Source: Medicago truncatula (Eukaryota; Streptophyta; Magnoliopsida; Fabales; Fabaceae). Taken from it: DNA of 64,000 bases. The stretch's first letter is position 1; each line of letters opens with the position of its first letter. Shown one piece after another: positions 7,734 through 61,009 of this stretch. The stretch spans positions 43,113,832 through 43,177,831 of the forward strand of contig NC_053046.1 of NCBI RefSeq assembly GCF_003473485.1. The letters run 5' to 3'. The notes beneath the pieces were generated by a model that was given only the letters and a program-made list of their open reading frames with translations, was not told the origin of the DNA and did no database searches. A program made the translations under genes and the position numbers.

Positions 7734-7914
7734 TATCATTTCCTTAAGTGATGTACATGGCAGTATTGGAAAGACAATGCTAGAGTTGTGAAATTTGCAT
7801 GAAGTTTAAATAATACTGATAAGGTACAAAATGTAGTGATGAGAGTATTATTGCTAGTTTGCTAGGTTTTCTTGTCTTTGAAATTGTTGAATTGATGTCT
7901 CACAAACAAAATGT

Positions 7915-19960: not shown

Positions 19961-20440
19961 AGAAAATAGAGACTAAAAAATTTGATATATTTAGAAGAAC
20001 TAAAACACATTTAACCTTTATATTTATTTCAATTCTGATCTCAACTTAAAAGAACAATCATCTTCTAATAATTTTGTCAAAGACTAATATTTTTTTAGCC
20101 AACAACTAATTCTTATTCTCTTCCTTTTAAACAAAAAAGAATATTCATTAGTCAATTTTCTTTTTACGATTTAGTAATAGTTTTATGGGTAAAAATATTT
20201 TCCCTATTTTGTTCTTATAACTTCACTTTAATGAGATCATTCATTTAACACAAAATCAGTAAAAAAAAAATTAAAAAAAAATGTTATTGACTCAATTTTT
20301 GTTATTTTCTTACCATTGTTTTTTTTTTCTTATACAATAAAATAATCCCCCCTCTCTCTCTCCCCCCCATTCCAAAATTACCAGAAGAAAAAAAAAACAC
20401 TCTTAACTATATTCAATCTGAAATTGGCCAAAAAGAGAAG

Positions 20441-21931
20441 ATGGGCATGCCAATGTTGATGAAGTATTTGGTTCAATTCCGGTATGTGTTTCTCATCACA
20501 GCCTCTATTTTTTTTGTCTCTCTACTTTTTCTAGATTATTATCAAGAGATATTCGCTGCACCCTCAACTTTTTCTACTATTTGTTGTGGTACTAATAACC
20601 AAAATAATGTAACCAATGAGGCCACATCAAATGATGAAGGGAATAGGAGAACAAATCCTTTGATTAAACACAATGTTGATGAAGTATTTAAAAAGTTGCC
20701 GCCAAAAATTATGGATCCTTGTTTAGGTCAGTATATCTATGTTTATGATCTTCCTGCTAGATTCAATGAGGATTTGTTGAAAGGATGCCACTCTCTACAG
20801 AAGTGGGAAAATATGTGTGTTTACCTATCAAACTTAGGTGTAGGACCTAAGATTATTGAGAAAACAAAGAAAAAAGTGCTATCAAAGAAGAGTTGGTATG
20901 CAACAAATCAATTTTCCCTTGAAGTAATTTTCCACAACACAATGAAACATTACAAGTGTTTAACCAATGATTCATCCTTGGCTTCAGCTATATATATACC
21001 ATACTATGCTGGTCTTGATGCAGGTCAATATCTATGGGAATTTAATATTTCCATGATAGATAAATCACCAAATGAATTTGTGAAATGGTTAGCACAACAA
21101 TCTCAGTGGAAAAGATTGCATGGTAAAGATCATTTCATGGTTGGTGGAAGAATTGGTTGTGATTTTAGGAGAGAAGGAGATTTGGATGATGATTTTGGAA
21201 CAAAGCTAATGTCCTTGCCAGAATTAAGTAACGTGTCATTTTTGTTAATAGAATCGTGTAAAGGTTTATATGACAATGAATTTCCAATTCCATATCCAAC
21301 TTATTTTCATCCAACAAATGATGATGAGATTTTTAATTGGCAAAGGAAAATGAGAGATAGGAAAAGGAATTATTTGTTTTCATTTGTCGGTGCTCCAAGA
21401 CCTAATTCAACATCTTCTATTAGAAATGAGTTAATCAAACATTGTGAATCTTCTAAGAGTTGCAAATTTGTTCGATGTTATCATGGTTCTAGTAAGAAAA
21501 AAAGTTGCCGCGATCCTGTTCAAGTTATGGATAATTTTCAGAATTCGGTTTTTTGTTTACAACCGGTTGGGGATTCTTTTACTAGAAGATCAATATTTGA
21601 TTCGATTTTGGCAGGTTGTATTCCTGTTTTCTTGCATCCACTGTCAGCATACAAGCAATATTTGTGGCATTTTCCTAAAAACGGTTCTAGTTACTCTGTG
21701 TTCATACCTGAAATCGATGTCAAAGAGGGGAGAGTGATGATTAATGAGACATTGTTCAATGTTTCAAAAAGTGAAGTGTTGGCAATGAGAGAAGAAGTTA
21801 TAAGACTCATTCCGAGGATTGTGTATCGTTATCCAGGTTCTAGATTAGAGACAATTGAAGATGCTTTTGATATAGCTGTTAAGGGAGTTCTTGGAAGAAT
21901 TGAAGCAATGAGAAGACAAATACAAATGTAA
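20441..21931 (+). CDS. MUR3/KATAMARI1-like xyloglucan galactosyltransferase (GT47, exostosin family)
   Basis: This is a 496-residue single-exon protein. Family members are Golgi type II membrane glycosyltransferases that add sugar to xyloglucan side chains for the cell wall. A short basic head and one membrane anchor (about 16-33, YVFLITASIFFVSLLFLDYY) are followed by a stem. The GT47 domain opens at CLGQYIYVYDLPARFN (94-109). Then come LIESCKGLYDNEFPIPYPT, YLFSFVGAPRP, the nucleotide-sugar region [20 protein letters not shown] (from 377), and a C-terminal helix ([17 protein letters not shown]). No frame break is seen and the length is normal. The exact donor and acceptor sugars cannot be read from sequence; this divergent subgroup need not be a true MUR3. 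It heads segmental unit 1 and has a broken sister at 26029. Confidence 0.9.
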   Translation: MGMPMLMKYLVQFRYVFLITASIFFVSLLFLDYYQEIFAAPSTFSTICCGTNNQNNVTNEATSNDEGNRRTNPLIKHNVDEVFKKLPPKIMDPCLGQYIYVYDLPARFNEDLLKGCHSLQKWENMCVYLSNLGVGPKIIEKTKKKVLSKKSWYATNQFSLEVIFHNTMKHYKCLTNDSSLASAIYIPYYAGLDAGQYLWEFNISMIDKSPNEFVKWLAQQSQWKRLHGKDHFMVGGRIGCDFRREGDLDDDFGTKLMSLPELSNVSFLLIESCKGLYDNEFPIPYPTYFHPTNDDEIFNWQRKMRDRKRNYLFSFVGAPRPNSTSSIRNELIKHCESSKSCKFVRCYHGSSKKKSCRDPVQVMDNFQNSVFCLQPVGDSFTRRSIFDSILAGCIPVFLHPLSAYKQYLWHFPKNGSSYSVFIPEIDVKEGRVMINETLFNVSKSEVLAMREEVIRLIPRIVYRYPGSRLETIEDAFDIAVKGVLGRIEAMRRQIQM

Positions 21932-23252
21932 ACGATTCTTACCTTGCAAAAGTTGTCGCCCTTTAACAATTTGCATTTTTTTGTGTAATTTGATTTGAGA
22001 TTAGGCATATTCTGTTTGTATTTCCCCAAACAATTTTGTTTGTTTAATTAAGATTCATATCGTCAATTTTATTTTAGTTTTGATCTTATGTGGTTAGTCT
22101 TACATCAACTATAAGTGAAAACTATATAAGAGGGGTGACTCATAAGTTCAATATTTGAAAATTTTGCAGATGTAGTATATATCCAGATCTCTTGATAGCT
22201 TAATATCTCTTGGTAGCCTTAGTTATTGGCCTACCATTATTTTTCGGTTGATTCTCCTCCAAATCCCATGATAGTTTATTAATTCTAGAGAAATATCATT
22301 AATTATACTTTTTACATCTAAAAATTGTCTAACTTGTAAGCCAAGGTAAGGGTGATGAGATGCTCATATAATCAAATGAGGGATCAGGTGAAATCGGAAC
22401 AATTGAATAAAAAAATTTTGGATTTTTCTCGAGTGTAAAGCATCTCACAAAGGTGTCTCACTCCGGTCTAAAGCATCTCGCAAACGTCTTTCAGACATGG
22501 TCAAAGGAACATGAAACTAATATAATAATTGATGTCAAAGACTCTTGTTCTACATTTTTAGCTGAAGATAACCAAAACTCCTGCGATCCAGTGAGCATGA
22601 TTTGAGAGAATGTTGTGTCAACTAACTACCGAAAAATACCACAAAATAAGAACTATACCCATCAAGCAACAACAGTAAAAAAAAATGCAATACTCAAGAG
22701 GTCAATGAGGGCATAGATTTGACGGGCGTCTTCATGCCCAATAAAATTATGTGCTTTGTCACTTTGTCTATCAAAACTACTTGTAAATTTTGTCTTAGAC
22801 TATTATTTTGCTCTCAATATACCTTTGTCTATCTGCTCTTCACTTTACTTATGTTTTTCTTAGGTTAGTAGTTCTCAAAAACCCCAAAACTCCGTATTTA
22901 ACATTATTTGAAAGAGCCGAGGAATCCACAACCGAGGGGGATGGTTTCTTCCTTGGCGTTATCGCTTGAAGAAAAGTGAATCACTGTTGAATCCTCCACT
23001 AACTTTCAAATCGACAATACTGGATTCAGATGATAAACAGAATTAAGCAGCCGCAAAACCTTATTATTATTACTAGAGTAAACAACTGAAAACAAATCAA
23101 GGTTCACATTTAAACACTGATCAAATACCTTATTATGGAATATTTATTTACCTGCTAGTTTACAACACCAAACCAACTGTTTAATAAACACTGATCTAAT
23201 ACTGATGACTTTTGCATAGCAAATAAAGCATATGATATCCAATTTGTAGGAA
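21932..23252. repeat. Segmental-duplication unit 1, intergenic part
   Basis: This matches 27450-27900 and 30487-31460 in diverged form, for example AGTATATATCCAGATCTC, CTAACTTGTAAGCCAA, GAAAGAGCCGAGGAATCCAC and GATATCCAATTTGTAGG. No gene was identified. A roughly 35-codon open stretch on the minus strand at about 22870-22965 is shared with the other unit (see findings). Confidence 0.75.
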
Positions 23253-23782
23253 TTATTTATCATATGATTTCAAGTATAATTTATGTTCTCTGGTATAATC
23301 AATCACTTCATCTGTGGTAAGGTATTTTATTGACAATCATCTCGCAATGCATTCCCTGAAATTAGACAATAAAATTGAAAAATGTCGCCCTTCTGTTAAA
23401 TCACCGTGATTTTTCTCTATAAAGTTAAGCTGATTTGATTTGGTACAAGTTCATCTACAACTTCAATATTAGCCTAAAAAAATGTAGTGCGAAGAAATTT
23501 AAATTCGCATAAAAGCATGGAAAAATGCTATGAATTAAAGACAAAGTGAACCAGGTTTCATGGCCAATCACGACCGAGATAAATTGATCAATTTCAAAGT
23601 TTTTTTAACATTAACAGTACACAAACACAGAAGTTATCACTTTTAATCCTTCGATTTGAAATTTCCATGCCCGTGCACATGTTTCATCAGCCCTTAATGT
23701 GGTCAAATACAAGTAACAAAAACAAGAAATTGAGATCAGAAACACAAACAAGCATGACCTTCAGAGATTCTGCACTAAGGAA
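23253..23782 (-). pseudogene. Broken 3' fragment of an NMNAT gene
   Basis: This is a copy of the 3' end of the intact NMNAT gene at 31464-35902. The last-exon equivalent is 23253-23355, with the same 103-nt length, but GGA has become TGA (23339-23337) in the CIAR*LSIKYL context. The preceding exon (ANIEVVDELVPNQIS) ends near 23427 without its donor site. The exon for VKSICRDYG is deleted. The ESLKVMLVC exon survives only in its first part, near 23740-23780, where AGAAATTGA is joined to GATCAG. The upstream exons 1-5 are absent. It cannot give a functional enzyme. Confidence 0.85.
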
Positions 23783-25878
23783 TACAAAAGCAAGTTATTT
23801 TATTGCTTTTACATCATCATCAGAAACATGTGTACAGAGATCAAAGCTTACCACAAAATTTAAATCAAACGACAGAAACTATGTATGCATCTTTCAAACC
23901 ACTGTCGAATCTTCGGACACTGAACATGCGGACCACTTCTGAAGGCTTTAGTACGATACAGAACCAAATAGCTCAGCCAATTATGTGCCCATAACACTAA
24001 GAAATTATACAAATACTGGGGCCAATAGACCATCTAAAATTAGAGGGAAGAAAATTACACCCTGAAGATTGCGTAAATTTACAAACTAGAGGTCTAAAAA
24101 TGTTACATATATTTATTAAAATATTTTGTAATCAAGAGCTTTTTAGACAAAATATGAGAACTATTTTAATCAAAATATAAGATTTTAAATTTGACTTCAT
24201 AATTGTAATAAAACATTGTTTCTGGTGACCCAACACGAGATATTTTTTTCTGTCAACTGTTATTATACGATAATGTTCTTACATATGAGTCCAAGAGGTG
24301 TCTCTTTAGTTGAGAAGAAGAAGAGGAAGAAATTATATAGAAAAAAATCATGAATTTTGTGGTTGAACTTTCCTAGGAACTTTGTCCTTGGAAGCACATA
24401 TTTTCAAAAAATTAAATTTCTTAAAAGTTTTCCTCTTGTTGGTTTGATTCCAACTCCAAGACCACGATATACCCTAATCTTTTTCTACAATTGATTGAAA
24501 AGCTTCATTAAGAGCCATTTGCCATAACTATAGAAAATTGTGCTCTTTCCCCAACATCAGGATCTCTCTAAGAATATTTTTTTAGATCCACAAAACATTA
24601 CATTAACACTTTTTAAAACTAAATATTTCAATATATTATCACGTCTTAACTAACGACATGAAATGATTTATGTTCACAAATCAAATAAAGAAAAACAAGT
24701 TTTCAATCATATTTATGGACAGACGTAGATAACACCAAATAAAATATATAGATAGCACCAAATAAATAGAACAGATAAACCTTAAACTATACTCCAGGTA
24801 CACAAAATATTTCAACTTATTTAAAGATAAAATAAGTTCTTGAATAAATAACAAATCAAAAAAAAATTCTAAAAATGACATATATAAGGTATATAATATC
24901 AGGGAGTTATAATATTGTATCACATTTTCTATTTGTTGATGATAAATGTTCTTTTCTTTTCTTCCAGGGAAACAAATATAATTAATTATTTTGGTCTATC
25001 CAGGTACACGAGACTGGTGCAATTCATCTGGTAATTTTCTTGAGGTTTTGTGATCGAGAGATTTGATCCTTAATAAATTTTAGACATTAAAAGTTTATAC
25101 AATTAATGATATGTAATATAGAATTCAATTAAACACTCAAAATGGTGAGTTCTATTGTGCATGCATGTTCTTAAGCACTTCTATGTAATAAAGCACATGT
25201 TATTATTATTAGGCATTTTTAATCTGCAAGCCAATATGCTAGTTAAACTGTTGCTACATTTTTCACTAGTAGTAAGGAGTGCAATTGAAAGACCTCTAAG
25301 ACAATTACAACAGTGACAATACGTATATGATAATATTGGTTCTCTTGAGAATAAACATGATAGTGGGTGACAATATATACAATTACAGTGAGTCAAGTAG
25401 AAAGAAATTAATTAAGATCAAACCCATACATATTCAATCTTTAGAATAGAGTGCAGAGGTCATAATATGTTGTTAGGTTCTTTTTTTTTTTTTTAATAAA
25501 AGGTCATAATATGTTGTTAGGTATTAGGCCTAAATTTGTTTTTCTTTTATTTCTATCATATACTAATTTTTTTAAGGTAGCCTTTTTTAAAATCTAAGAA
25601 GGCTAGAAAAAACTATTTAAAAAAGGTTACTTCACATTTTGAGGGGATGAATTTAATTTATTAGAAAACAAAAAGAATTTATTTAAATTTATATTGTAGG
25701 TAATTTGAAATATTTATTAATATGTAAGGAAGGTTTACGTGTCCGTATTAATTTATTAGTTTTTTAATTTATTTGTTTTATTAGTTTTTTTGAATTTATT
25801 AGTTTTTTTGTTTTTTATTTTTTTTATTGAAGGTAATTTGACCGTATTAATTTGAAATAGTCTGAAAATAATAAAAAA
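23783..25878. other. Intergenic between the two duplication units
   Basis: Homology to unit 2 continues to about 24060 (GGGCCAATAGACCATCTAAA, shared with 32883). Beyond that I see AT-rich unique sequence with no gene. A T-tract with 22-bp direct repeats lies at 25457-25522 and is listed separately. Confidence 0.45.
25457..25522. repeat. T-tract flanked by perfect 22-bp direct repeats
   Basis: AGGTCATAATATGTTGTTAG plus GT occurs at 25457-25478 and again at 25501-25522. Between them are only 22 bases, TC followed by a run of T and AATAAA. This looks like a retro-insertion reduced to its poly(A) tail, with target-site duplication; simple slippage is another possibility. Confidence 0.6.
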
Positions 25879-25971
25879 GTGATTGGCTCAATTTTTTTAT
25901 TTATTTTCTTACCATAGATTTTTTTTTCTTCTATAATCCCTCATTCTCTTCTTATTCCAAATCACCAAGGG

Positions 25972-26002
<31 letters not shown>

Positions 26003-26028
26003 AATTTGATATCGGCCAAAAAGAGAAG

Positions 26029-27565
26029 ATGGACATGCCAATGTTGAGGAAGTATTTGGTTCAATTCTGGTCTGTTTCTCATTACAGCCTCTATTTTTTG
26101 TGTCTCACTACTTTCTCTAGATTATTATTTGGCTAGCAATAATAGTGGAATGACATTCTTACTTTCTAACATGAACAATGCAAAGCAAGAAGATGAAGTA
26201 TTTAAAAAGTTGCTACAAAAAATTGTAGATCCTTGTTTAGGCCAATATATCTATGTTTATGATCTTCCTGCTAGATTCAATGAGGATTTGTTGAAAGGAT
26301 GCCACTCTCTACAGAAGTGGGAAAATATGTGTGTTTTCTTATCAAACTTAGGTGTAGGACCTAAGATTATTGAGAAATCAAAAAAAGAAGTGCTATCAAA
26401 GAAAAATTGGTATGCAACAAATCAATATTCACTTGAAGTAATTTTCCACAATATAATGAAACATTACAAGTGTTTAACCAATGATTCATCCTTGGCTTCA
26501 GCTATATATGTACCATTCTATGCTGGTCTTGATGCAGGTCAATATCTATGGGAATTTAATATTTCCATTAGAGATAAATCACCAAATGAATTTGTGAAAT
26601 GGTTAGGACAACAATCTCAGTGGAAAAGATTGCATGGTAAAGATCATTTCATGGTTGGTGGAAGAATTGGTTGTGATTTTAGGAGAGAAGGTGATTCAGA
26701 TCATAATTGGGGAACAAAGCTAATGTTCTTGCCAGAAGTAAGTAACATGTCATTTTTGTTAATAGAATCATGTAAAGGTTTATATGACAATGAATTTCCA
26801 ATTCCATATCCAACTTATTTTCATCCTACAAATGATGATGAAATTTTTAAGTGGCAAAGGAAAATGAGAAATAAGAAAAGGGATTATTTGTTTACATTTG
26901 TCGGTGCTCCAAGGCCTGATTCACCATCTTCTGTTAGAAATCAGTTAATCAAACATTGCGAATCTTCTAAGAGTTGTAAACGTGTTGGATGTTATCATGG
27001 TTCTAGTAAGAAAATAAGTTGTCGCGATCCTGTTCAAGTTATGGATAATTTTCAGAATTCGGTATTTTGTTTACAACCGATGGGGGATTCTTTTACTAGA
27101 TGATCAATTTTTGATTCAATTTTGGCGGGTTGTATTCCTGTTTTCTTTCATCCACTATCAGCATACAAGCAATATTTGTGGCATTTTCCTAAAAACGGTT
27201 CTAATTACTCTGTTCTCATACCTGAAATTGATGTCAAAGAGGGAAAAGTGATGATTAATGAGACATTGTTCAATGTTTCAAAAAGTGAAGTGTTGGCAAT
27301 GAGAGAAGAGGTTATAAGACTCATTCCGAGGATTGTGTATCGTTATCCAGGTTCTAGATTAGAGACAATTGAAGATGCTTTTGATATAGCTGTTAAGGGA
27401 GTTCTTGGAAGAATTGAAGCAATGAGAAGACAAATTACAAATGTAAACGATTCTTACCATGCAAAAGTTGTCGCCCTTAACAATTTGCATTTTCTTCTGT
27501 GCAGGGGCAAATGCTTGTTTATACAAGGGGTACAATGGCTACCCAAAAATAAAATAAAATTATAG
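26029..27565 (+). pseudogene. Broken MUR3-like GT47 copy (segmental unit 2)
   Basis: This closely resembles the intact gene at 20441-21931 over its whole length. The start ATG (26029, MDMPMLRKYLVQF) is kept, but a 2-bp loss (GGTCTGTTTCTC against GGTATGTGTTTCTC) shifts the frame within the membrane anchor. The main frame then runs from about 26129 to a TGA at 27101-27103, which replaces the second Arg of GDSFTRR in the sugar-nucleotide region. The frame continues to 27565. An extra T near 27436 removes the natural stop and adds a foreign tail. The N-terminal anchor stem is also shortened. With three lesions it is very unlikely to be active. A poly-A tract of about 28 bases sits just upstream at 25972-25999. 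Confidence 0.9.
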
Positions 27566-27910
27566 AATAAGTAGGTATATTTTTATATTAGCTACCTTTA
27601 ATAGTTTGCTATCCCAAGTTCGACTATAGTTGGAATAATTTTTTGTCTGAGTTTGATTACTTTCCGGTTGAACTTTGGATTACTTGCTCCCGCCTTTTTA
27701 AGATTTTGCATATAGGTTCTTGTTCAAACAATATTTTGTATATAGGTGGAGTATATATCCAGATCTCCTGGTAGCCTTAGTTATTGGCCTACCGTTGTTT
27801 TTTTTCCAGTCGATGCTCCCCCGACCACATGATACTTTTACAACGAATCTGTTAATTACCATTTGTATTTGTTTTCTTGTTTTGGTAGCTACTATCTGCT
27901 GAGTGCTCCT

Positions 27911-28085
27911 TGTTAGGAAACATGGCATCCATGGAAGGAATGAGAGAATAGCTATGAAATTGTTGTATTGATAGTAAAATGTAATATTACAAATGAGGAA
28001 GTTATCCCACTAATGGGGTTGTTACAACTATATATACTACTACTTCACTAATGCCAACTAGCTAGTATCTAACATATATCTAATA
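27911..28085 (-). repeat. 3' LTR (element read on minus strand)
   Basis: On the plus strand it starts TGTTAGGAAACATGGCATCC and ends ATATATCTAATA. It is paired with 30309-30481. Confidence 0.9.
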
Positions 28086-28329
28086 GTCCCCCTCAAGTTG
28101 GAAGGTGCTCAAAACACTTCCACATTGAAATGAGAAAATACAAGGAAATACATCAAGCAAATGAAAATACAAGGAAAGATGCCGGAAATATATCGGCCAA
28201 GAGAAGAGCAGCAACCAAATGCTTATCCAACAAGAGGAAACCACAACTCAATGTGTAACCACTTGGAGGAAGAAGCAACAAACCAACACTTAACCACCAT
28301 CCGGTAGAAGCCAACATCGACAAAGCCAT

Positions 28330-28562
28330 AAAAGGCACAACGCTTAACCATCAAGAGTTCTCAATAACTCAAGACAGAAGCACAAGAAGAAGAAGAAGAA
28401 AACGACGCCTAACCATCCTTGGACAAAAGCACAACAACGCTTAACCATCATGGACAGAAGCACAACAACAACGCTTAACCATCCGTGGATAGAAGCACAA
28501 CAACGCTTAACCATCCATGACAGAAGCACAACAAGGCTTAACCATCATGGACAGAAGCCCAA
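28330..28562. repeat. Minisatellite inside the LTR element
   Basis: Five to six tandem imperfect copies of a roughly 35-bp unit are present, each containing CTTAACCATC, then a GGACAGAAGCACAACAA-like sequence. They lie close to the element's 3' end. Confidence 0.75.
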
Positions 28563-30308
28563 AAACAAGCCAATAAAGGCTAACCAACATCAAGAAATCA
28601 AATCAATCAAGAGATTTTGGTGCAGAAACCAAATAAGCCACCACTCATAAATCACATGCTTATTGTCATGTCATCTATGATTGCACCTGCTGAAGCTAAC
28701 AGAGACAGAAGTACACTTCACAACAGCTATTATTCACTATACCATCATACTGATTCATACTATAAGTCTCACCAAATACCAACCATAAGCAAAGGCAGAG
28801 ACCAAAAGCTTCTATAACGATCCAGGAATATGAGGCAACGCAGCAGAATATGGTGTTCAAAAAAGAAGGGAGCTCCACCATGACTAGAACTTGCATCAAT
28901 ACAGCAGCTCAATATTCCTTTGATGCTTCATATCACCAGAGACCAAAAACAATTATGGGCTGCAAAGGAACAGAAATTCCCAACATAGTTCTTCCTTAAT
29001 GGACATAGCAGTAACATATGATGCTTCACAAACACTACAAATGCACACCATCAAAGTAGAAAATCCAATATAACCAAAGCTTATCAACACACTATACACA
29101 TATTTGAAGTAACAAGACGAATGTTTTAGCAATGACAACCCAAACAGCTTATGGTAAACATCCAAAGCAATCAACGAACATCCAAATCAAACACAATCCT
29201 GATTTAAGAGTATTTCACCATAAGCAACAGACCAGCCAGCTTTCCCAATCACACTCTCCAACTCCTTGCAAAAAATGAACAAGTGCCAACTAAACTACTT
29301 GTGAAAATCCAAAACAATCTAACTGAACAAAGCTTGGCTGCTGAAAACAGAACCAATACTCCCAACATACCAAAGTGACCTCGTCAACATACGACAGGTG
29401 AATGACACAGGAAAATGTGTGCAGCAATCAGCAGTATCATGCATCAGTTCAACATCAACATCTCAAAATAAATCCAATGTAAAGATGGAGCAGAACAGAC
29501 TGCAGTGTTATCAACAACCAGCACATCAATCTGAACACAAAATCAATTTGTTTTCCATTGAGGACTTTCAACAAACACCTTGGAAGCAATAGTCATATAT
29601 GGCAACAAACACTAGTATTATGATCAAGAAACAGCTATTCAAACGATAAATCCAAGCCAAAACAGAGAATGGCGCAAACATAATTGTGATAGAACCAGAA
29701 TAACAAAAGAATCAAAAGATCAATGAATTGAAAGATTTGATATATCAACAATGCGAACAAGAAGCTAGAATCAAAATCAACATCAGAACCAGAAAATGAT
29801 AACTTCGATCCAAATCAAGGAATTGGAATCGAATCGTGAAACCTAAAACTTGTAATTGACTGAATCAAAAAATCGAAACAGACAAATTTTGGAAATTAGG
29901 ATCGAGTTGGAATCGCAAAACACTAGACTATGGAGAAAATCGCGATAATGAAAGAATTTGAGCAAGAAACTCGAATCCAATATGGATCAGAAATGGAACG
30001 TAAAAATAGAAAATTAGTGCACGAACAAGAGATAAACAAACACGAAATCGCGAAAGGAATCACAAATGAAAAATCTTGACTGAACAAAGAAAAGGATTAA
30101 GAAGATTCAAATAACAGATCAGAAACGAAATCGATGAACAAGCGAAGAAGAAGAACTGAATCCGAACAAAAAAAATGGAATTTGTGATTTTATCTAGAAA
30201 ACGAAAACAAACGAGAAAGAAAATTAAATGATGAGAAAATTAGATTTTCTCGAGAAAATGCAGCGGAAAATATCCTTCAAGGCGGATACCAGATTAGCTC
30301 TAATACCA

Positions 30309-30481
30309 TGTTAGGAAACATGGCATCCATGGAAGGAATGAGAGAATAGCTATGAAATTGTTGTATTGATAATAAAATGTAATATTACAAATGAGGAAGT
30401 TATCCCACTAATGGGGTTGTTACAACTATATATACTACTACTTCACTAATGCTAACTAGTATCTAACATATATCTCTAATA
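30309..30481 (-). repeat. 5' LTR (element read on minus strand)
   Basis: This LTR is nearly identical to 27911-28085. The adjoining plus-strand GCTCTAATACCA is the reverse complement of the primer binding site. Confidence 0.9.
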
Positions 30482-31463
30482 CTCCTTGCACCAAATTAGT
30501 TCTAGAGAAATGTTATTAAAATATACTTCTTTTCTTTACATCGAAAAATTTCTAACTTGTAAGCCAATGTAAGGGTAATGAGATGCTCATATAGAGGAAT
30601 GAGGGATCAGGCAAAATAGGGACAATTGAATACAAATTTGTTAAACTTTCTCAGGTTTAAAGCATCTCGCGAAGGTCTGATGGGTTGTCAAACATGGTCA
30701 AAGGAACATGAAACTAATAATTTGGTGTGAAAGACCCTTGTCTACGTTTTCAGCTCAAGATAACGAAAACACATATGATCCAATGAGCGTAGTTTGGGAG
30801 AATGTTGTGTTGGCTAACTACCAAAAAACACCACAAAATAAGAACAATACCTTGCTTAGGGCACCATATACAACCATCGAGCAACAACAATAAAAAAAAA
30901 AAAAAAAAATACATGCAATACTCAGGCGGTCAATGAGGGCTAAGACTTGAAGGGTGTGTTCTAGACACTATCAATCAAATTGTTATTTTGCTAGCAATAT
31001 ACCTTAGTTTAACTGTTGTTCACTTTACTTGTGTTTTTCGAAGAGTAGTGGTTCTCATAAAACCCAAAAATCCATATTTAACATTATTTGAAAGAGCCGA
31101 GGAATCCACAACCGAGGGCCATGGTTTCTTCCTTGGCATTATCACTTGAAAAAAAGTGAAACATTGTTGAAAGCTATTAGCCAAATCCTCAACCAACTTT
31201 CACATTCGACAATATTGAATTCAAATAATAAACAGAATTTAGCAGCCGCAAATTACCAGGTTAAATTAAACAACTGAAAACGTACAACTTCAACAATTCT
31301 CTTAAATTTTGCATTTAACTTGTGAATTGTGGAATATTTATAATTTACCTGCTAGTTTTACAACACCAAATCAACTGTTTATTGAACACTAATCTAATAC
31401 GCAGCTATGTAACTAATGACTCTTGCATAGCGAATACAGCATATGATATCCAATTTGTAGGAA

Positions 31464-34400
31464 TTATTTATCATCTGATTTCAAGTATAATTTATGTTCT
31501 CTGGTATAATCAATCACTTCATCCGCGGTAAGGTATTTTATTGATAATCCTCTTGCAATGCATTCCCTAAAATAAGTAATAAAAACAGACAATAAAATTT
31601 AAAAATGTCTCCCTTCTGTTAAATCACCATGATTTATGTCTTCTAAAGTAAACAAAACAAGGTGATAGTATTTTTACCTTATTCTTGTTGAGCTGATTTG
31701 ATTTGGTACAAGTTCATCTACAACTTCAATATTAGCCTAAAAAATATATGTCAAATTTAAATTCGCATAAAAGCATGGAAAAATGCTATGAAATGTAGAT
31801 TGTAGACAAAGCAAAACATATTTCATAACCAATCACGGCTGAGAAGAATTGATCAATTTCAAAGTTTTTTAACCATCAATTTTAATCCTTCAATTTGAAA
31901 TTCCCATGCCTTTGCACATGTTGCCATGTCAAAAAGATCTCATCAGCCTATAGTTTGACCTTAATGTGGTCAAAAACAAGAAATTGAAATTTGAAAACTT
32001 CCACATTTCACTCGTCAAAAAAAAAAAAGTACATGTTTCGTTTTAACGCATGTCAGAAGATATGGTAATTCTTGAAAGGTGATGTACCTGATTCTCATTC
32101 AGAATATTATCATCAGATATAGTCTTCTCAATATTTTGTCCTTCTCTGCGTATGCAGACTACTCCATAATCTCTGCATATACTCTTAACCTAGAGTAAAA
32201 ACATAAAATGACAAAATTATGGTCCATTTTTTCCACAACCAATGACAAAATTATAGTCCATTTTTTTCACAACCAGGGGCAAATCACTTAACGTACAGAA
32301 AATAGATATATACTCAATCCATGCTCATATATGTAGGAAGAAGAAAAACATCCTAACAAATTAACCATGCCGATTCTAACACATCATGACAAAATCAGTT
32401 CAATTCGTCTGGTAGAGTTTTTGTGTAGAGAAACAGTAACCTCGGATCTAAATATAAACGATATTTTTATTTTTTTTAAATATAAAAGTTTTATTGCCTT
32501 TTTATTAATAAAAAAAATATTAGATTTCTGCATAATGCATAAGTACCTGGTCAGGAATCCAAAATCCAGGAATTCCAAAGGAATGGAGGAGATCAGAGCC
32601 ACAAACAAGCATGACCTTCAGAGATTCTACACTAATGAATACAAAAGCAAGTTATTTTATTGCTTTTACATCATCATCAGAAACATGTGTAGAAAGAAAT
32701 CAAAGCTTAGCACAAAATTTAAATCTAATGAAAGAAACTATGTCTGCATCTTTCAAACTATTGTCGCATCTTCCGACACTGAACATACGGACCACTTCTG
32801 AAGGTTTTAGTACCATACAGAACCAAATACACCAGTCAATTATGTGCCCCCATAAAACTAAGAAATTATACAGATAATACTAGGGCCAATAGACCATCTA
32901 AAATCAGAGGGAGGAAAATTACACCCTGAAATTAAAACATACATACTACCCCCTCCCTAAATATATATTGAAAAGTAATAACCAAGTTCAATATCCAACC
33001 AATTATATGCCCTGAAATTACATGTTGTAGAAAAAGATGCAACATAATTAAGAGTATGTTAGTAAAGAAATACTCCCTCCGTTCCAAATTATATGTCACT
33101 TTAGCGATTTCACATAGATTAAGAAATGCAACTAATGTTGTATAGAAAGGAGTAATTGTGAGTTATTTTACAAAAAATATCCTTTATTATTGGTATTGGA
33201 AAACATAAATTAAAGAATTCGAAAAAGATAAAGTAATAAATAGTAAGGGGCATAATAGGAAAATAAACGTCAATGATTCCTTGTTATTGTAAAGTGACAT
33301 ATAATTTGGACAAATGAATTTTGGTAGAATGACATATAATTTGGAACGGATGGAGTAAATAATGCAGTTAAAAATTTGAAGATGTCTTATAAAAAGGGAC
33401 AAGGAAATATATCAGGGGGGTCCTATATTTAAGGATGGATTCAGCGCTAGTCATTTCAGAAACAACATTTATTTAAGGATAGATTCAGTGCTAGTCATTT
33501 CAGAAACAAAACATTTATAAAGGAATAACTAATCACAAGAAAGTGCTACACCCCATCTCCTTCAAATGTCATCAATGTGACGAGTATGTCAATATTAAAA
33601 AGAGATTAAGAAAGCCGGTGTTTCTTCTTTCCCTGGTTTTTAAATTAGGATGGGGAGGAGGAGCATTCTGAAAAGGAAATTAGACAAATGTGATTTCGTT
33701 GAAGACTCGTCTGTTAGGCATACCTCTAGATATCAACCCTGTCTCACAAATAGAAGCGTGGACTCTGGATAGGACAGTCAAAGTGCGTTGATATGTGTTT
33801 TGATTTGCCTGTAGTAGTTTATAACCATATAAAAATGAAAGGTAAGAAATCAGGCCAGACAGATATAGTTATCGTGATACATGTGATATCAAATGTTCTA
33901 AAAAAAATCAATTGTTTCAATATTGAAGTTTTTTACATGTGAAAAGAATGGAAAAAAAAAATGTGCAATCTAGCAGATAGAAAGAGTAATGTACCTCCCA
34001 TGGATCAACCATTACAAATTCTGAACTTTTGCAGGCCAAATGACATAATTGTATTCGATGGTCAGCAGATATTAGATTCTGAATCAACATATAAGTGAAA
34101 GTCGATTAGAAAAAAACGGAAGCTGTGCAATTTATAGTATTGCTTGATATAGGCACTAGGCAGATAGACTAAAAATTATCGTTACATGAATAGTGTTATT
34201 AGATATAAAACCAATTGTGTGCTACCACTTAATAACTTATTTTTTGGAATAGTTGGTTCATGGCGATGGTATCAGAGTCTCTATTACCAAGTGGTCTAGA
34301 GTTCAATGGATAATGCCTCCATTCTAAATAAAAGTTTGATTACAAGACAAAATTGGGTGAGTCAATGCTTGTCCATGCTTCAAGTTCAAATGGCTTTTGA

Positions 34401-35902
34401 GTGAGAACATGTTTTAGATATAAACCATTCATGCACTTTCACCTAATAACCTAACTCTTCTGACAGTTGGTTCATAACAAATGACATCTTAGAATTTGGT
34501 CTCCTTGTCTAAATGCCTAGCAGAAAAATATAATTTAAGGAATGTTTTAATCCTCACAATAGATTGCTCATTGACTCCTATATAACTTCAGTGTTCCACA
34601 CATGCCAAACATGTATTTTCCCATAATTATTTGATGTTCTTACAAGTTTTCCGGATACAAGTATGGATATGATAGAATAAGGATTACCCTCTTTGTTAGA
34701 AAGCTGCATACCTTTTTCTTGTATGCATCATTCACAGGTGACATGTACCCTCCAATTACACAGTAGCCTTTGGAATTCAATGCATCTCTTGCAAGCTCTA
34801 TTGGAAAGAAAGAAAAAAACTGAAAATGAATGAAATTGAATATTGAAGTACTTGGAAGGCAAAAATCATGGCAATGACATTCCGTCAAGTGGTACTTAGG
34901 GTAATTAGAAGGAATGTTCTACACGTATATATCTCTCTCCTCTTTACCTTCGTATACACAGTACAAACTCAAAGATCATAACTTAATGAAGTTAGTAATA
35001 AATAAAGGAAGTCACCACAGATCCTATGCAAAAATAACTGTCCAATACACCAACTCTTTAGAACATCATTGGCAAGCTTATTTTAATAATAATTACTGCA
35101 TGTTTTTTTATCTATATGGTATAATATTGTATTTGGTATATGAAGCCTGCATAGAGTATATTTTATTAAAGGTCAACATGTGTTTAAGTAACCACTTTCC
35201 AGCCCTACTTAGTGGGAAAAGACTTGGTTGTTGTAAAATGTGTTTAAGCAAGAATTTGAGTATTGAAATTTTCACATACATCTACCTCGAAAACCATTGT
35301 AAATGGTAAATGATTATCATGTCATGCATCTATACTTATCCAAAAACAATTTCACTCTTAATATTTTTTCACATGATGAATCTGAACTTCTAATTTTCCC
35401 CCTTAACTCCACAACACTTAAAGGAAGAAAAGTATAAATCTCAAATCATTCAACAATCAATATGAGGGGTAACATTGGCGCAACTGGTAAAGTTGTTGTC
35501 ATATTGAAGATGAACTTAAAAAATCAAAATGCAGTTTCTTTTTTTGTTAGAAATGATTAAAATCATTTAGATTTGACTAGCAAAACAGTCATGGATGTAC
35601 ACAAAGCAAGCTTGAAGAAACGAAAACAAATGAATAAATCAAAGCTTGAAATGAAACTCACCGAACATACGTAAATGCATAAAAGTAGGTGGATTAAAGC
35701 TTCCAGTTGCCACCAGAATGATATATATCTTGCCACTGCAGAAAAACAGTGTTACATAATTCAAAATAAGTTCAATAAAAAGAAACTTACACAATTACCC
35801 AAACTAAATAATAAAGGAAACATACTCGCTTGTGTTTCCAGGGGAGGGTTCGTTATTAATAAGTTGTAAAGCTAATTTATCCAACGGCAACGGAACATCC
35901 AT
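31464..35902 (-). CDS. NMNAT: Nicotinamide/nicotinate mononucleotide adenylyltransferase (NMNAT)
   Basis: NMNAT joins ATP to NMN or NaMN to form NAD or its deamido form, an essential step of NAD synthesis. Coding exons, minus strand: 35902-35826, 35735-35662, 34797-34712, 34078-33995, 33808-33738, 32631-32547, 32189-32088, 31736-31678, 31566-31464. All have GT-AG borders, giving 246 residues, close to my recollection of about 240 for the plant enzyme. It starts MDVPLPLDKL. The nucleotidyltransferase signature GSFNPPTFMHLRMF follows VATG. Later motifs are GGYMSPVNDAYKKK, VMVDPWE, ESLKVMLVCGSDLLHSF, WIPDQ, and the ATP-binding C-terminal motif ISSTRIRECI. It ends KSDDK. A 5' UTR intron is indicated (acceptor next to 35905, donor at 36319). 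Introns carry a Stowaway MITE and a TRIM. The 3' half is duplicated as a pseudogene at 23253-23782. Confidence 0.93.
33071..33356. mobile_element. Stowaway-like MITE in an NMNAT intron
   Basis: The ends TACTCCCTCCGTTCCAAATT and AATTTGGAACGGATGGAGTA are inverted repeats with TA at both borders, typical of Tc1/mariner-derived Stowaway MITEs. Inner TATATGTCAC and GACATATAAT pairs extend the stem. The element is 286 bp, non-coding, in the intron between NMNAT exons 5 and 6. Confidence 0.85.
33428..33520. repeat. Two-copy tandem duplication in an NMNAT intron
   Basis: ATTTAAGGATGGATTCAGCG and ATTTAAGGATAGATTCAGTG each lead into the same CTAGTCATTTCAGAAACA. The unit is about 47 bp. Confidence 0.65.
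34194..34485 (+). mobile_element. TRIM-like element in an NMNAT intron
   Basis: Two diverged short terminal repeats begin TTAGATATAAAACC (about 34198) and TTAGATATAAACC (about 34413), and both run to AGTTGGTTCAT. The first is followed by TGGTATCAGAGTC, a tRNA-Met primer binding site. Only about 140 bp of non-coding DNA lies between them. This matches a terminal-repeat retrotransposon in miniature, now old. Confidence 0.6.
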
Positions 35903-35999
35903 AACCTGAAATCATTAGAAACACAAGCAAACAATAAGATCTCAATCTCAACACAAAAAAAAAAAAAAAAAAAAAAAACAATGTATTATAAGTCAAACT

Positions 36000-36185
36000 A
36001 TTTGGAAGAGCTTACGGAAACAGCTTATGACATGTCCATAAGTTGTTTTCATCTTATTTTCATAAGTTCTCAAGGATAGCTTATGAAAACAGCTTATAAC
36101 TTACATGAAAACAATTTAACTTCATTTTCTTTTGTTATAAAATAAGCACTTATGTGATAAGTGTTTACGCTATAAGCACCTAAGT
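36000..36185. repeat. Dispersed CTTATGAAAACAGCTTAT repeat
   Basis: This belongs to the same family as 8225-8445 and 60230-60590. It shows AGAGCTTACGGAAACAGCTT at the left and ATAAGCACTTATGTGATAAG at the right. It lies in the 5' UTR intron of NMNAT. Confidence 0.55.
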
Positions 36186-36319
36186 ACAGGACATAATATA
36201 TTTTGTGACAATCACTGTGAAAGTGAATGAAAGTAGGAAAGATGATTATAATTGAATAATGATAGAGTAATATTTAGATGACTGTGAAAGTGTTAAACAA
36301 GAAATTGATAGATACTCAC

Positions 36320-36480
36320 CGCCGCTGCAAATCTAAGAGAGAAGGAAGGGTTCTGAGAAAAGAAGAAGAAAACGCGGTTAAGAAAATGCGAGGTGGAATC
36401 ACCCGAATCGCGTTTCTGCTCAATGAATTCTGCTTTTGCCCAAAACCGCGTGTGTCGCTGAAGCTAGATTTCGTGTATAT
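36320..36480 (-). other. Proposed non-coding first exon of NMNAT
   Basis: On the minus strand GCAGCGGCG is followed by the donor GTGAGTATC at 36319, matching the acceptor just before the ATG at 35902. The sequence upstream is the most G+C-rich in the neighbourhood. The transcription start is not defined. Confidence 0.5.
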
Positions 36481-36683
36481 TACTTTTAATTTTTAAATGA
36501 ATTTGTGAACCAATAATAATATTTTACTAATTTTATACCATTATACTAAATTTAATTATTCAACATAAGTTTAACAGGATTCAAAAAAATGTTTTTTTTT
36601 TTTTTGTAGATAGACGAAATGGCAAAGCCATTATAAACTAACACACACAAGTAGAGGTACCGAGGTTCGAACCCTGGTCATGG

Positions 36684-37909
36684 CAGTGGCGGAGCCAGAC
36701 AAAAATGTTTGGGGTGGCCGCCATAAAAATTGAAAAGCAGCCATTATTTGACCGCAATGTGAGTTGCGACATCATGGCTTTTGATATCGCCGTGTTTTGT
36801 AAGTAACTGCGATTCATGCTGCATCAACAACATTTGATAAACAGCAGGCTTTGATTCAATGCAAAGGAAAAAGAGGCTTTTCATCAAACTGCTTTGAATA
36901 AACAACATTTGTTATTGTATTTGTTCCTAAACCAAAAACATCGAAAAACACAGCATAGTACTAAAACAAAAACATAACATAGTTAAATCAAATGCAAAAC
37001 TCATGAAACAAACTATACACTAAATCACTTTCCAACCACCATTTTAGCATAAAGACACAAACTTACATAAATTTTTTGATGACCCATTTCACAGAACATT
37101 TCATACAGCAATCAAGACATGTATTCACTAATCAACTAGGTTTAACAACAACATATGGAAAGCTCATTGAAATCAACTAAAAACATGTAATCATTAAAGA
37201 AAAATCAGAATTGAACGAAATTACATTCAATTTCACATTACCTTGTAATTAACAACAATTAGGGTTTATGGAGAGAGATGAGATAACTCTCTAATCAACA
37301 GAGAAAACGGAGGAGGATGCGACGGTGATGGATGGAGAAGGAGGTGAGAGTGGTTGCGGCGGCGGTGGTGAGGTGAATGGAGAGCGGTGGTGTGGTCTGG
37401 TCAGTGGTCTCTGGGAGAAGAAAAAGAAGGGTTAATAGTGTTTTACTAATATAGGTTATTTTTGGTTTTCCATCCTATAAAATTTTTTATTTGGTTTTCG
37501 TCCAGATTTCTGGTTTTGGACCTTTATGAATTTTGACAGTACAAAATCGACGATATGGCAAGGGGCTAAACCAAAATTTTCTCAAATTAACATGGGGTAA
37601 ACCGAAATTTGCTCAAATCAGAGGAGGTAAACCAAAATTTTCTCAAATGACAAGGGGCGAAATTTGCCATGAAGGTCCAAAACCAAAAATTCTTCAAATT
37701 ACAAGGACGAAAACCAAGCAAAAAAATTTACAAAATGGAAAACCGAAAATGACCTATATTACAAGGGGGTAAAGCACTATTAACCCGAAAAAGAAGATCG
37801 CGTTTCTGATGAAAGAGAAAGGGAAAGAGGAAATGAAGTAGAATTGGGAATACTCATATTACTTAAGGGTATAATAGTAATTCCCCTTGCCACCCTAGTT
37901 CCGCCACTG
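36684..37909. mobile_element. hAT-like non-autonomous transposon, 1.2 kb
   Basis: The termini CAGTGGCGGAGCCAG and TAGTTCCGCCACTG are inverted repeats. They are flanked by an 8-bp target duplication, GGTCATGG (36676-36683) and GGTCATAG (37910-37917), with one mismatch. An 8-bp duplication points to the hAT superfamily. There is no transposase; the G+C-rich segment at about 37290-37420 (GGTTGCGGCGGCGGTGG) may be captured host sequence. It contains a further MITE at 37429-37786. Confidence 0.75.
37429..37786. mobile_element. Mutator-type MITE nested in the hAT-like element
   Basis: The ends GGGTTAATAGTGTTTTAC and GTAAAGCACTATTAACCC form terminal inverted repeats. The element is bracketed by a perfect 9-bp duplication GAAAAAGAA (37420-37428 and 37787-37795). 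It contains three tandem units of about 32 bp with AAACCAAAATTTTCTCAAAT at 37567-37650. Confidence 0.85.
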
Positions 37910-38558
37910 GGTCATAGCATAACAATTTCGGCATTTTGACAGTTGAGCTAGAATTATCTTAAATGAGAATGAGATGTCTAATTTTAACTATAATTAAAAG
38001 ATAATTTGTTCTTTACATATCCAAAATCAATTCTATTTCAAACTATGAAAACAACATTAACTCATAAGAATCACTTTTATGTGGTGTTTCCAAACATAAA
38101 TTAATTCACTTTTAACTCACTTTTAACTAAAATTAATTTTATCAAGATTAATTCACCGTATAACCAAACACACCACACCCCGTGTTTGGTAATTTTAGTC
38201 GTTAACTCGATTCTACCCCAAATTTATAAATTTTATTTTGTTTGTTGAAAACCCATTTTAGTTCCCAACAAAAATAGATTCAGTTTTGTAATCCAAAGGA
38301 AAAAAATATCCAATTTAGTTCTCGCAATAAAATATACATTTTATTGTCATATTTATATAATTTTTAGGTGTTTGTACGAGTTGGAGAATGAGGTAAAAAA
38401 ATCTACAATAAAAACATTGTTTTTTGAAACATAGAATAAAAAAACACTTACATGCATGTCTTGACCAAAAACAAATGAAAAGTAAAATTGATATTTTTTT
38501 TAAGTTTAGGATGAAAGGTTAGATTTCTAATTAGCTTATTTAGTTGTAATAAAATAAA

Positions 38559-39063
38559 GGGTTAAATATGTTTTTGATCCCAATAAATATGTCAAATTTT
38601 CGTTTTAGTCTCTCTAAAATTTTCCTTTAATTTTTAGTTCTTATAAAATTTTCAATCACTACTTTTGGTCCCTATTTTTAATTTTATTTTTTTATTTTTT
38701 TTAATTAAATTGCGTAGAAATGTGTATAATATTCTAAAAAAAAAATTGCTAAAAAAAATTAGAATTTTTTAACAAAACACAAATTAAATATGAATTTTTA
38801 ACCGTAAAACATATAAAAATTCATATTAAATTCATGTTTTGTTAAAAAATTCTAAAATTTTTTTGGGGTGATTCTTGTAATATTTTGAATTTTCCTGGAA
38901 AATTTGATTAAAAAATATGAATTCTACATATGAGTTTACTTTAAAAGAGGGACCAAAAGTGAAGATTGAAAATTTTATAGGGACTAAAAGTTGAAGGAAA
39001 ATTTTAGAGGGACTAAAACAAAAAGTTGACATATTTATAGGGACCAAAAACATATTTAACCCT
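38559..39063. mobile_element. MITE with long inverted repeats (GGGTTAAATATGTTTTTG ends)
   Basis: The left arm GGGTTAAATATGTTTTTGAT and the right arm CAAAAACATATTTAACCC are mirrored over about 110 bp each, with phrases of the type GGGACTAAAA. It is flanked by the 8-bp direct repeat AAAATAAA (38551-38558 and 39064-39071). It is 505 bp and non-coding, probably Mutator-like. Confidence 0.8.
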
Positions 39064-39125
39064 AAAATAAACTCTTCGATTCATTCCATAAATATGGTCT
39101 AATGAGTAATTTCATGAATATTGAT

Positions 39126-39215
39126 ATATAGAGGTTGAAGTTGGAACTTCGAATCTTCATTTCTTCATACTTACGGTGTGTGGTCTAGCCACTAACCAAC
39201 TTGACGAAAAAAAAT
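39126..39215 (+). repeat. SINE 3'-part remnant
   Basis: GTTGGAACTTCGAATCTTC (box B-like) leads to GTGTGGTCTAGCCACTAACC and CTTGACGAAAAAAAA. This parallels the 3' half and A tail of the SINE at 8682-8833. Confidence 0.45.
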
Positions 39216-40952
39216 AAAATTAGTTCAAAAATAATTTGAGTTGGATTCTTTTTCTCTTTCTAATTACTAGAATTAGAGATGCGCCGTAAAAAAATTATCA
39301 TCTTTAATTGATTTTTGACAGTTGGTTTAAAAAAATATTTTATCGTATATGTACGATGTTTTTATCATCGTTCAACAATGAATAATCTTCCTCAAAAAAC
39401 TTGTAGGATATACAAGATAAGTCAGACAAAAATATCGAAGATTTAATTATATGCTTAGGAGTTTTAGTCTTTTACCATTCGAATCAATTCATCATTGATA
39501 AAAAAAAAATTGTTTTTTTTTTTTTTAATATCGGGTAGGACTAACAAGAACTCAATGTAGTGAAAATTGTGTTCATAGGCCACCATTTAGAATACACAGG
39601 TAATACTTTTTGTGTACCATACAAAAAGCAATTGTTACTTTTGGTAGGCAGTTTCAACGGTGATATACAAAATTAACATTTCACCCATAATCTTTTTAGT
39701 GTTATATTACTGGCTACCCAAAACTTTTGATTATTATGTAGGATGCCGTAAATATTTTATACCCTTTGAACCATTGATCAATAAAACCTTAGGCACACAA
39801 CGATAAAGGAGACTGAATTGGAAACACAGAAAATTTTGGAGTCTTAAATCAAGTTCATCCTTCTTTTTTTTTTTAGCAGATTGAGTTCATCCTTGTTCAT
39901 TATACTATCTTATCTCCAACTTATTTTTTATTAAATATTTAATATTAAAATATGCTCATCCCTTTCATCTTTCTTCTTTGCCTTAATTCTCAGATCCAAC
40001 CACAAGCCCATAAAGAATGGCTCCCAAACACACGGCATCATTCATCATTAATCCTTCAACCACCACAAAATCGCACCTTTACATGTCGTCGTTGATTCGG
40101 CTCTCGACAAAGAGTCGGTCTTAGCAGATCTCATTCTCGCTGTGGTGATTGTTCATGCTCCGATCGCGGTGACTGTTCTTACAATTACAAAGACGTTAGA
40201 CGCCAATACAGGAAACCATAACTAGAAAAAAATCTGAAAGAGCGGCGAAGATCGTTAACCTCGAAATCTCAATCTTTTCACGTTAATGGAAAAGGTATAA
40301 AAAGAAAGAACAAAATAATTTTTTTTTATGAGTCTGGAAAAAGGTTGAAGACGAAGTGTATAAGGATGACAAAACTACAGTTCTGATTCTAACAAAAAAT
40401 GGTGATATATACTAATTATTTTTTCTTCATAATTACTCGGTTCACAAACAATACTTTTATTTTGCGTCAATTATTTTAAATTAAAACACTTTTTAAAAAA
40501 AATTACTACACTTAAAAGTATTAAATATAATTAGAACTTTCTCCAGTATTAATTTTGTTATGAAATAATTATTTTCATAAATGTATCAATTCAATTCTAT
40601 TGTTGTTGGACACCATACTTGCAAATACCAACAAACAAACACCAAACCTACTAAACAAGTACTCATTCTTTAATCTTAGCCATTGAATTTTTTAATAATA
40701 TATCAATGGTGAAAAACTCACTTTTGTATAATACCCAAAAACATGAACTTGTGTATACTAAATGCCACCCACTTTTATTGTTAAAAACATCCATAAAAAA
40801 CTAATAAAAAGTTCTATCGAAAAAATAATTTAGTTTAGAACCGTTTAAACCGAAACAAACTTTAACTAACTATTCCCGCTTCAACACACTTCTTCTTCAT
40901 TCTTCCATTCCCATTTCTTGTTTCTTCTTCTTCTTGAAGCAACCACCACATA
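39216..40952. other. Intergenic upstream of the lectin receptor kinase
   Basis: Mostly AT-rich. An island at about 39985-40265 is richer in G+C, with an ATG at 40018 opening MAPKHTASFIINPSTTTK and a stop soon after. I cannot assign it and suspect a captured gene fragment. The last 150 bp before 40953 is CT-rich leader-like sequence. Confidence 0.4.
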
Positions 40953-42998: not shown

Positions 42999-43813
42999 AA
43001 AGTTTTTGAACTTGTTCATTTCATTCTTTTATTCCTTTTTGTTTCCCCTTGGGGGGTTGATTTTGTTACTTGTAAAGTTTCTGTTCTCTAGTCTGAGTAA
43101 TCACTCAGAAAAGTAGTCATAGTTCATTGACAGTAGTAGTTTAGTGCAAATCTATTGCATTTCATGGTATATGGTCAGGCTAGGTTGTATTTCAGGTACA
43201 GATATTGTAGTTTTGGTATATACAGAAATTGACTATTTTTTGGTCATATGATCTCTTTCTCAAGTTTCATTCCAGTAACAATCAGCTTACTGTTTTCCTC
43301 TTTTGGATGCTCTCTCAAACTCTCATGGTGTTCAAACCTTCTAGGTGGTCAAAAAATGAGAAAATGGAAAATTGAAACAAGTAGTTGTAATTTTTAATTT
43401 CAAATTAGGCTGTTAATAATATAGGCCTTGACCCTTTTCATTAAAAATATTTGCAATTGGGTTTTTATTTTTAATTTGTTGGGTCTGCAAAGAATGTCGT
43501 CCAAACAATGTGTAACACACTTGCTTAGTGTGGTTAGACTTAAGATTGACTCCATTTGAAAAGGAAAATAAGATGGATTATTTGACCTTGTATACAATTT
43601 TATTAGAATGTGACAGTCCTAAAAGTGTTTCACGCATGATTTTATTACTCTTCAAAACCAAAAGGAATGTATAGAGTATCTGAGTAAGTCATTTTTGCAA
43701 AGAACAAGAGGATGAACTCTATTGAATTGTTCAGATCAAAATAATAAGGTTACCTAACTATATATTATACGCATGTCACATGCGGCATGTGCATGTATGA
43801 TGTATGGAGTTCA

Positions 43814-43851
<38 letters not shown>

Positions 43852-44688
43852 AGGCATGATGTATGCATCATCATTTCTGGCATTTAAAAAGAGATCATGA
43901 AAGTAGATACTAGACTTCAAAGATATCATCATAGCATGTCACATATTAAGAATTTAACAGATTTTCACTACATTTATCCTAAAATGGTAGTAGAACTCAA
44001 CATAGGTTCTTTGTTTTGAATGGGATGCACAATTAAATGCATCAATTTTCTTTTTGTTAGAAAGAAACTGGTTTCTTAATTCATAATATTTTTATTAGAG
44101 AAAGGTGGTTCTTACACATAAAATGATGGAAACCATGTGATCTCCTTCAATGAAGTACGTAAAACATAAGAAATGCATATAAGAACCGCAACTGAAGATG
44201 TACACGGCTCCAAGGAATGGGTAGTACCTAGGTAATGGCATTAAAATAAAAATATAGAACACAATGTATGAAGTTATTTTCATATTAAGAGTACTCAACA
44301 TATAATTTAAAATTGAGGTGTTTTGATTTTGATTATATTAAAAGGATGGACTCTGGAAGAATGAAATAGAATAAAATTTATTTTACTTTGTCGGTGTCAT
44401 TTTGTTTTGTCCACATGCAGATGGTGGGCATAAATTTAAGAATAATCTCCAATTTACAAAAGATTACTTCACTTGGTACTATAATCAAATAAATGAGAAC
44501 TCTATTTGAATTGGTTAAATTGATGGTGCACGTGCCAACTTTGACATCAAGTATTTTTTATTTTGAGGGGAACTTTAATTTGACATCATGTATTAATGCA
44601 CCATATAGACACACCATCTCTCTTTTGTCCTTCATAAAAAATTATAATCAAGATACTAAGGATTCCATACCACATCTTAGCAAAAGAA
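42999..44688. other. Intergenic, with a 36-bp poly-A tract
   Basis: The start is the kinase 3' UTR. A pure A run occupies 43815-43850. No gene, RNA or clear transposon was seen. Confidence 0.5.
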
Positions 44689-54492: not shown

Positions 54493-60929
<6,437 letters not shown>

Positions 60930-61009
60930 GTTTGAACCTTTGTAAGCTGTTTGGATATGGTACCTTTGGGGGTTTAACTGTTAAATACGGTTCATCAGAG
61001 GAAAAACAT

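Follow-up and report, generated by a model that had tools for sequence, protein, structure and literature searches.

In Arabidopsis, accessions have lost different copies of the duplicated genes HPA and TIM22 and their hybrid offspring suffer, and the part of PMC8042742 considered here describes hybrid failure as a known result when two genotypes have silenced opposite copies of an essential duplicated gene. Arabidopsis itself has only one Na/NMNAT gene, as far as the excerpted text of PMC12178909 goes, and NMNAT-deficient plants form non-viable pollen according to earlier work cited in an excerpt of PMC6900047. Our analysis concerns a locus of Medicago truncatula in the window (the whole stretch of DNA analysed, 64,000 nucleotides, C5:43113832-43177831), where a GT47 (exostosin-family) gene and a convergent NMNAT gene are represented in two repeat units, the left one called unit 1 and the right one unit 2, and again at a third locus from C3:1260646 onward. 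Compared with the single gene described for Arabidopsis in that portion of PMC12178909, this genome holds NMNAT three times: as an intact-looking gene, as a nearly complete copy and as a fragment. Like HPA and TIM22 as presented in the same part of PMC8042742, the case involves a gene which a relative has once and cannot do without, and which lies here at two unlinked loci, one copy bearing a probable loss-of-function lesion; unlike HPA and TIM22, for which opposite losses between accessions are known, it is seen here in one genome. We consider it probable that two nested duplications, followed by ordinary and independent decay, produced the present arrangement, most of the locus being a matter of ordinary gene birth and death. 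When a partial tandem duplication breaks within a gene, one of the resulting copies is complete and the other truncated, and the NMNAT copies of the window, complete in unit 2 and truncated in unit 1, have this form; unlike an ordinary duplication of this kind, the present one is joined by a second, interchromosomal duplication that starts at almost the same place. A literature search judged by titles and the beginnings of abstracts found no paper on the locus, which does not prove that none exists.

The sequence-only reading had proposed a tandem segmental duplication, and self-alignment bears it out: three blocks common to 20143-24088 and 25751-32948, far above chance (E 0 to 8e-109), pair 20143-21986 with 25751-27500 (85% identity), 22278-23742 with 30495-31996 (71.5%, rich in gaps) and 23732-24088 with 32589-32948 (88.7%). 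The units are adjacent, unit 2 being longer mainly through an element of the long terminal repeat (LTR) type, and their homology ends inside NMNAT intron 5, at about 24062 in unit 1 and 32925 in unit 2. The junction between them consists of 1.75 kb of sequence without explanation (Table 1).

The NMNAT gene of unit 2 had been read as intact, and its nine exons and their splice sites agree with this. Its product resembles the Arabidopsis Na/NMNAT (At5g55810, as described in parts of PMC5526872, PMC12178909 and PMC6900047) in that residues 1-244 match a plant-like chain, 9rpk_A, annotated as NMNAT in PDB (E 3.6e-106). The CTP_transf_like profile (PF01467) scores 66 bits against a cut-off of 21, over residues 35-217 and profile positions 2-132 of 133. 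We take 9rpk_A to be an Arabidopsis chain, and GSFNPPTFMH and ISSTRIR, both present in the translation, to be functional motifs of eukaryotic-type NMNAT; the gene is thus predicted to encode a eukaryotic-type NMNAT enzyme. Over the 430-Mb, 42-contig assembly in which all genome searches were made, this protein gave 20 matches, of which 19 lie in unit 2, C3 or unit 1; the remaining one is on C6, with E 4.5, and there is no further detectable NMNAT copy in this assembly. A genome-wide family search with PF01467 gave five matches, the window's own NMNAT with its short exons not among them; the protein search did find it.

The copy in unit 1 is broken in the ways that had been claimed: exon 9 contains a TGA, the exon-8 donor is missing together with the exon end (about 40 bp), and exon 7 lies within a loss of about 590-600 bp that follows the exon 6 remnant and takes in the remainder of exon 6 and part of intron 7. 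Exons 1-5 were not found in 22000-25750, where matches were of 11-15 bp at most, and tblastn of the NMNAT protein against the window outside unit 2 returned nothing but the unit 1 remnants. Since the homology stops in intron 5 and no remnant of exons 1-5 was found, the NMNAT of unit 1 was probably truncated at birth, with the breakpoint of the duplication within intron 5, and we favour the earlier suggestion that this copy may never have been complete.

The sequence-only reading nevertheless preferred reciprocal loss in tandem, in which GT47 and NMNAT were once complete in both units, one unit then losing the one gene and the other unit the other. In its favour, each unit does contain sequence of both genes, and each gene is broken in one of the two units. 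The aligned NMNAT exon pieces of the two units differ at 8/187 bp, while the 3' part of the gene with its downstream sequence differs at 220/1345, a contrast that could hint at past constraint on the unit 1 copy. Set beside the neighbouring intron-5 stretch (26/330), however, 8/187 is close to the expectation for one free and one constrained copy. The abrupt end of homology in intron 5 and the want of any trace of exons 1-5 also speak against two complete pairs, and we regard this history as unlikely. What stands of it is the local duplication, the broken NMNAT of unit 1 and the broken GT47 of unit 2; what lacks support is the reciprocal loss of two full gene pairs, the unit 1 NMNAT being probably a fragment from the start and C3 sharing the GT47-NMNAT pair with lesions of its own. 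The claim that each gene survives exactly once holds within the window, with one intact-looking copy of each, but the third locus on C3 calls for a genome-wide test. Window 23824-24053, a piece of intron 5 of NMNAT whose end nearly coincides with the unit 1 breakpoint, also has a partial match on C1 near 48230621 (L045:1357-1552), slightly nearer to unit 1 (77.6%) than to unit 2 (74.3%).

This third locus belongs to an interchromosomal block which includes GT47, NMNAT, lectin-kinase and WEB-like genes and whose copies on C3 and C5 differ overall by about 2-3% substitutions plus indels. Alignment resumes beyond the window at C5:43199693-43203752 (97.9%) and extends to C5:43209000/C3:1300450 (98.3%), giving an end-to-end size of about 69 kb on C5, with C5:43177832-43199692 outside the comparison, and 40 kb on C3. 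The C3 NMNAT has all nine exons and differs from unit 2 at 4 positions in 750 bp, one of them silent and three changing the amino acid, but its exon-8 acceptor has changed from AG, as in both unit 1 and unit 2, to GG. The sole AG in the approximately 98 bp upstream (at -52) runs into a stop, the five AGs within exon 8 all shift the frame, and skipping the 59-bp exon 8 shifts it as well; loss of function of this copy is accordingly the likely outcome on paper. Between unit 2 and C3, NMNAT exons differ less than introns (4/750 versus 71/3669, Fisher p = 0.005), a deficit indicating that at least one of the two copies has been constrained. It is no proof that the C3 copy worked for a long time, since one frozen and one neutral copy would fit as well (P 0.15).

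The LTR-type element that separates GT47 from NMNAT in unit 2 is most simply explained as an insertion on C5 that postdates the C3/C5 duplication. That the third copy or the lesions arose from misassembly or residual haplotypes seems to us very improbable: the analysis rests on one assembly, but the copies are separated by the divergence just given, the insertion present in one copy is matched by a clean empty site in the other, and the left-hand surroundings of the two copies differ. Two further features of the block are recorded here as observations. C3:1272232-1273816, between NMNAT and the lectin kinase, is made of inverted and joined pieces of window 53236-58126, to the right of the sugar transporter, with short overlaps at some joins. 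A sugar-transporter (PF00083) gene at window 49858-51527 and C3:1289408-1291954 has an in-frame TAG (PDV*AKEL) in both copies, and the C5 copy is without much of the third exon that C3 keeps; reciprocal loss of this gene between C3 and C5 was rejected, given the common stop and a further frame break on C3, the gene being probably already dead.

The GT47 gene of unit 1 is the intact member that had been claimed, with a PF03016 domain at 260 bits (cut-off 33.4); no PDB chain matched its protein at E 0.001. Among its paralogues in the same genome it is 52-53% identical to L014/L015, which we assume to be of MUR3-like length, and closer to L018 (69%) and L022 (77% over 410 aa). Of the lesions ascribed to the unit 2 copy, the 2-bp frameshift and the AGA-to-TGA change are both there. 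The third, an insertion that removes the stop, is probably of reversed polarity: because unit 2, the C3 copy and L018 all have the extra T near the stop (TTACAAATG), while L022 reads TCACAAATG, the simplest reading is a 1-bp deletion in unit 1. Both of these unit 2 lesions, the 2-bp deletion and the TGA, are absent from the C3 copy, which carries its own 1-bp deletion at about C3:1261398, absent in turn from unit 2; because the lesions differ, the two copies were broken separately. Loss of the start codon was dropped as a C3 lesion: the first ATG is missing, yet a second one, two codons further, is in frame and the frame is open. Only the 1-bp deletion was counted. Judged by sequence, unit 1 thus holds the single open GT47 among the three loci, and the only intact-looking NMNAT is that of unit 2, at one of two unlinked sites, the C3 copy having lost its acceptor and no other being present. 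A high-copy dispersed repeat occupies window 19118-19925, about 500 bp upstream of the start codon of the unit 1 GT47.

A family search of the genome gave 93 exon-level GT47 matches, from which the 16 best-scoring places (14 besides units 1 and 2) were taken into a tree of 16 rows, of which two were less than half filled. Unit 2 groups with the C3 copy (support 93/95), and this pair with unit 1 (95/100). Between units 1 and 2, Ks of GT47 is 0.117 (bootstrap 0.078-0.162) and Ka/Ks, a measure the sequence-only reading had proposed, is 0.36 (0.23-0.60), whereas between unit 2 and C3 Ks is 0.042 and the NMNAT introns differ by 1.9%; two duplications of different age follow from these values. At 1.08e-8 substitutions per site per year, the unit 1/unit 2 event would be roughly 5 and the C3/C5 event 1-2 million years old.

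Polarised changes in GT47 were counted as synonymous:nonsynonymous, leaving out codons with a gap and dropping ambiguous columns (5 with outgroup L018, 6 with L022). With L018 they are 18:14 on the unit 1 branch, 3:13 on the stem shared by unit 2 and C3, 5:11 on unit 2 and 5:14 on C3; with L022 the corresponding counts are 11:14, 6:15, 5:10 and 5:15. Unit 1 differs from the other branches taken together when L018 is the outgroup (18:14 versus 13:38, Fisher p = 0.006), which suggests, without establishing it, relaxed constraint on the second GT47 in the lineage of unit 2 and C3. Gene conversion at the 3' end of GT47 was considered too, but its sign, a longest identical run of 123 bp that was equalled in 424/10000 shuffles, is too weak.

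It seems reasonable to put these elements together as follows. The older event would have been a local duplication, which took in a segment beginning shortly upstream of GT47 and ending within intron 5 of NMNAT, its convergent neighbour, and yielded units 1 and 2, the former with an NMNAT already without exons 1-5, while the GT47 copy on the unit 2 lineage may have been freed from selection. In the younger event, a stretch from near the junction of the units to at least C5:43209000 would have been copied between C5 and C3. Afterwards, the second GT47 would have been broken independently on each chromosome, and the C3 NMNAT would have lost its exon-8 splice acceptor.

Several points weigh against this history. 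A later deletion of exons 1-5 from unit 1 is possible. The difference in constraint between unit 1 and the other GT47 branches is non-significant with L022 as outgroup (p = 0.21). The C3/C5 block is unproven as one unbroken stretch, given that window 51814-64000 matches C3 in inverted pieces only, those of 53236-58126 lying inverted within the C3 block, and that the C5 side was compared up to 43177831 and again from 43199693. Finally, the left edge of the block, at 25817 in an AT-rich tract, falls within about 70 bp of the limit of unit 1/unit 2 homology (25751 by BLAST, nearer 25870 by eye), a near coincidence that is left unexplained.

We found no sequence feature that would fix the direction of copying between C3 and C5. 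It is quite possible, though less likely than not, that C3 is the older site and once held unit 1 as well, C5 receiving a copy of the entire stretch before C3 lost unit 1 and everything to its left. The high-copy dispersed repeat that ends about 270 bp left of the block boundary on C3 is compatible with such a later rearrangement; on the other hand, a search for window 1-25 kb in C3:1222000-1260646 found short repeats only, and the neighbours of the block do not favour C3. Synteny was indeed rejected as a sign of C3 ancestry, for the WEB-like gene also stands beside the C5 block and the C3 stretch with a Suc_Fer-like piece also aligns to C5; the order of these two right of the C3 block, which presumably matches that of Arabidopsis, is not usable for direction. 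Searches of further flanking sequence are weak evidence, swamped as they are, the last of them in part, by dispersed repeats: window 14800-20400 and 60600-63900 showed no C3 match among the best 40 of 2533 and the best 40 of 3563 candidates, and C5:43300000-43302500 and C5:43500000-43502500 no second copy of their whole length among the best 40 of 2256 and the best 40 of 1240.

Returning to the two nested duplications that we favour, the losses in units 1 and 2 lie on the same haplotype, where divergent resolution has no effect, and it is the pair formed by C3 and C5 that could be of consequence. Only if other accessions had resolved these NMNAT copies in another way would a change at one splice site, in a gene of core metabolism, cause segregation distortion and reduced hybrid fertility. 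It is tempting to go one step further and imagine a natural duplicate-gene incompatibility in the NAD pathway, other accessions keeping the C3 NMNAT and lacking or having lost the C5 copy, both sites being near chromosome ends. We hold this for a long shot; were it true, crosses with the present genotype would lose a quarter of the gametes, those carrying neither copy.

Table 1. Features of the GT47-NMNAT locus, in window positions
Feature	Position	Strand	Description or basis
Unit 1 GT47 (exostosin-family) gene	20441..21931	+	One open reading frame, 496 aa; PF03016 profile; polarised branch counts
Unit 1 NMNAT exon 9 remnant	23253..23355	-	103 bp, 6 mismatches, GGA->TGA
Unit 1 NMNAT exon 8 remnant	23428..23473	-	46/59 bp align, no mismatch; exon end and donor missing
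Unit 1 NMNAT exon 6 remnant	23732..23769	-	First 38 bp of exon 6, 2 mismatches
Junction sequence, from end of unit 1 homology (NMNAT intron 5) to left edge of C3/C5 block	24062..25817	.	24000-25860 searched against genome: besides itself, short partial matches only
Interchromosomal duplication, part in window	25817..51814	+	Collinear, with gaps, with C3:1260646-1292281
Unit 2 GT47 pseudogene	26029..27565	+	2-bp deletion after about 26070, AGA->TGA at 27101-27103; comparison with unit 1 and C3 copy
LTR-type element between GT47 and NMNAT in unit 2	27911..30481	.	2571 bp, terminal repeats of about 180 bp, 5-bp target duplication CTCCT; uninterrupted site on C3
Unit 2 NMNAT gene, nine coding exons	31464..35902	-	Every intron GT..AG; 750 bp including stop; 249 aa
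Unit 2 NMNAT coding exons	35902-35826, 35735-35662, 34797-34712, 34078-33995, 33808-33724, 32626-32547, 32189-32088, 31736-31678, 31566-31464	-	

Elsewhere in the window, a second local duplication pairs 7387-7882 with 16616-17097 at 88% identity in the region of a CBF/NF-Y (PF00808) gene; the copy on the right contains a 115-aa frame without a Pfam match. Between the two, at 10936-14727, lie open reading frames of the CC-NB-ARC-LRR resistance-gene type, in open stretches of 878 aa and 385 aa that share the same frame with one stop codon between them.

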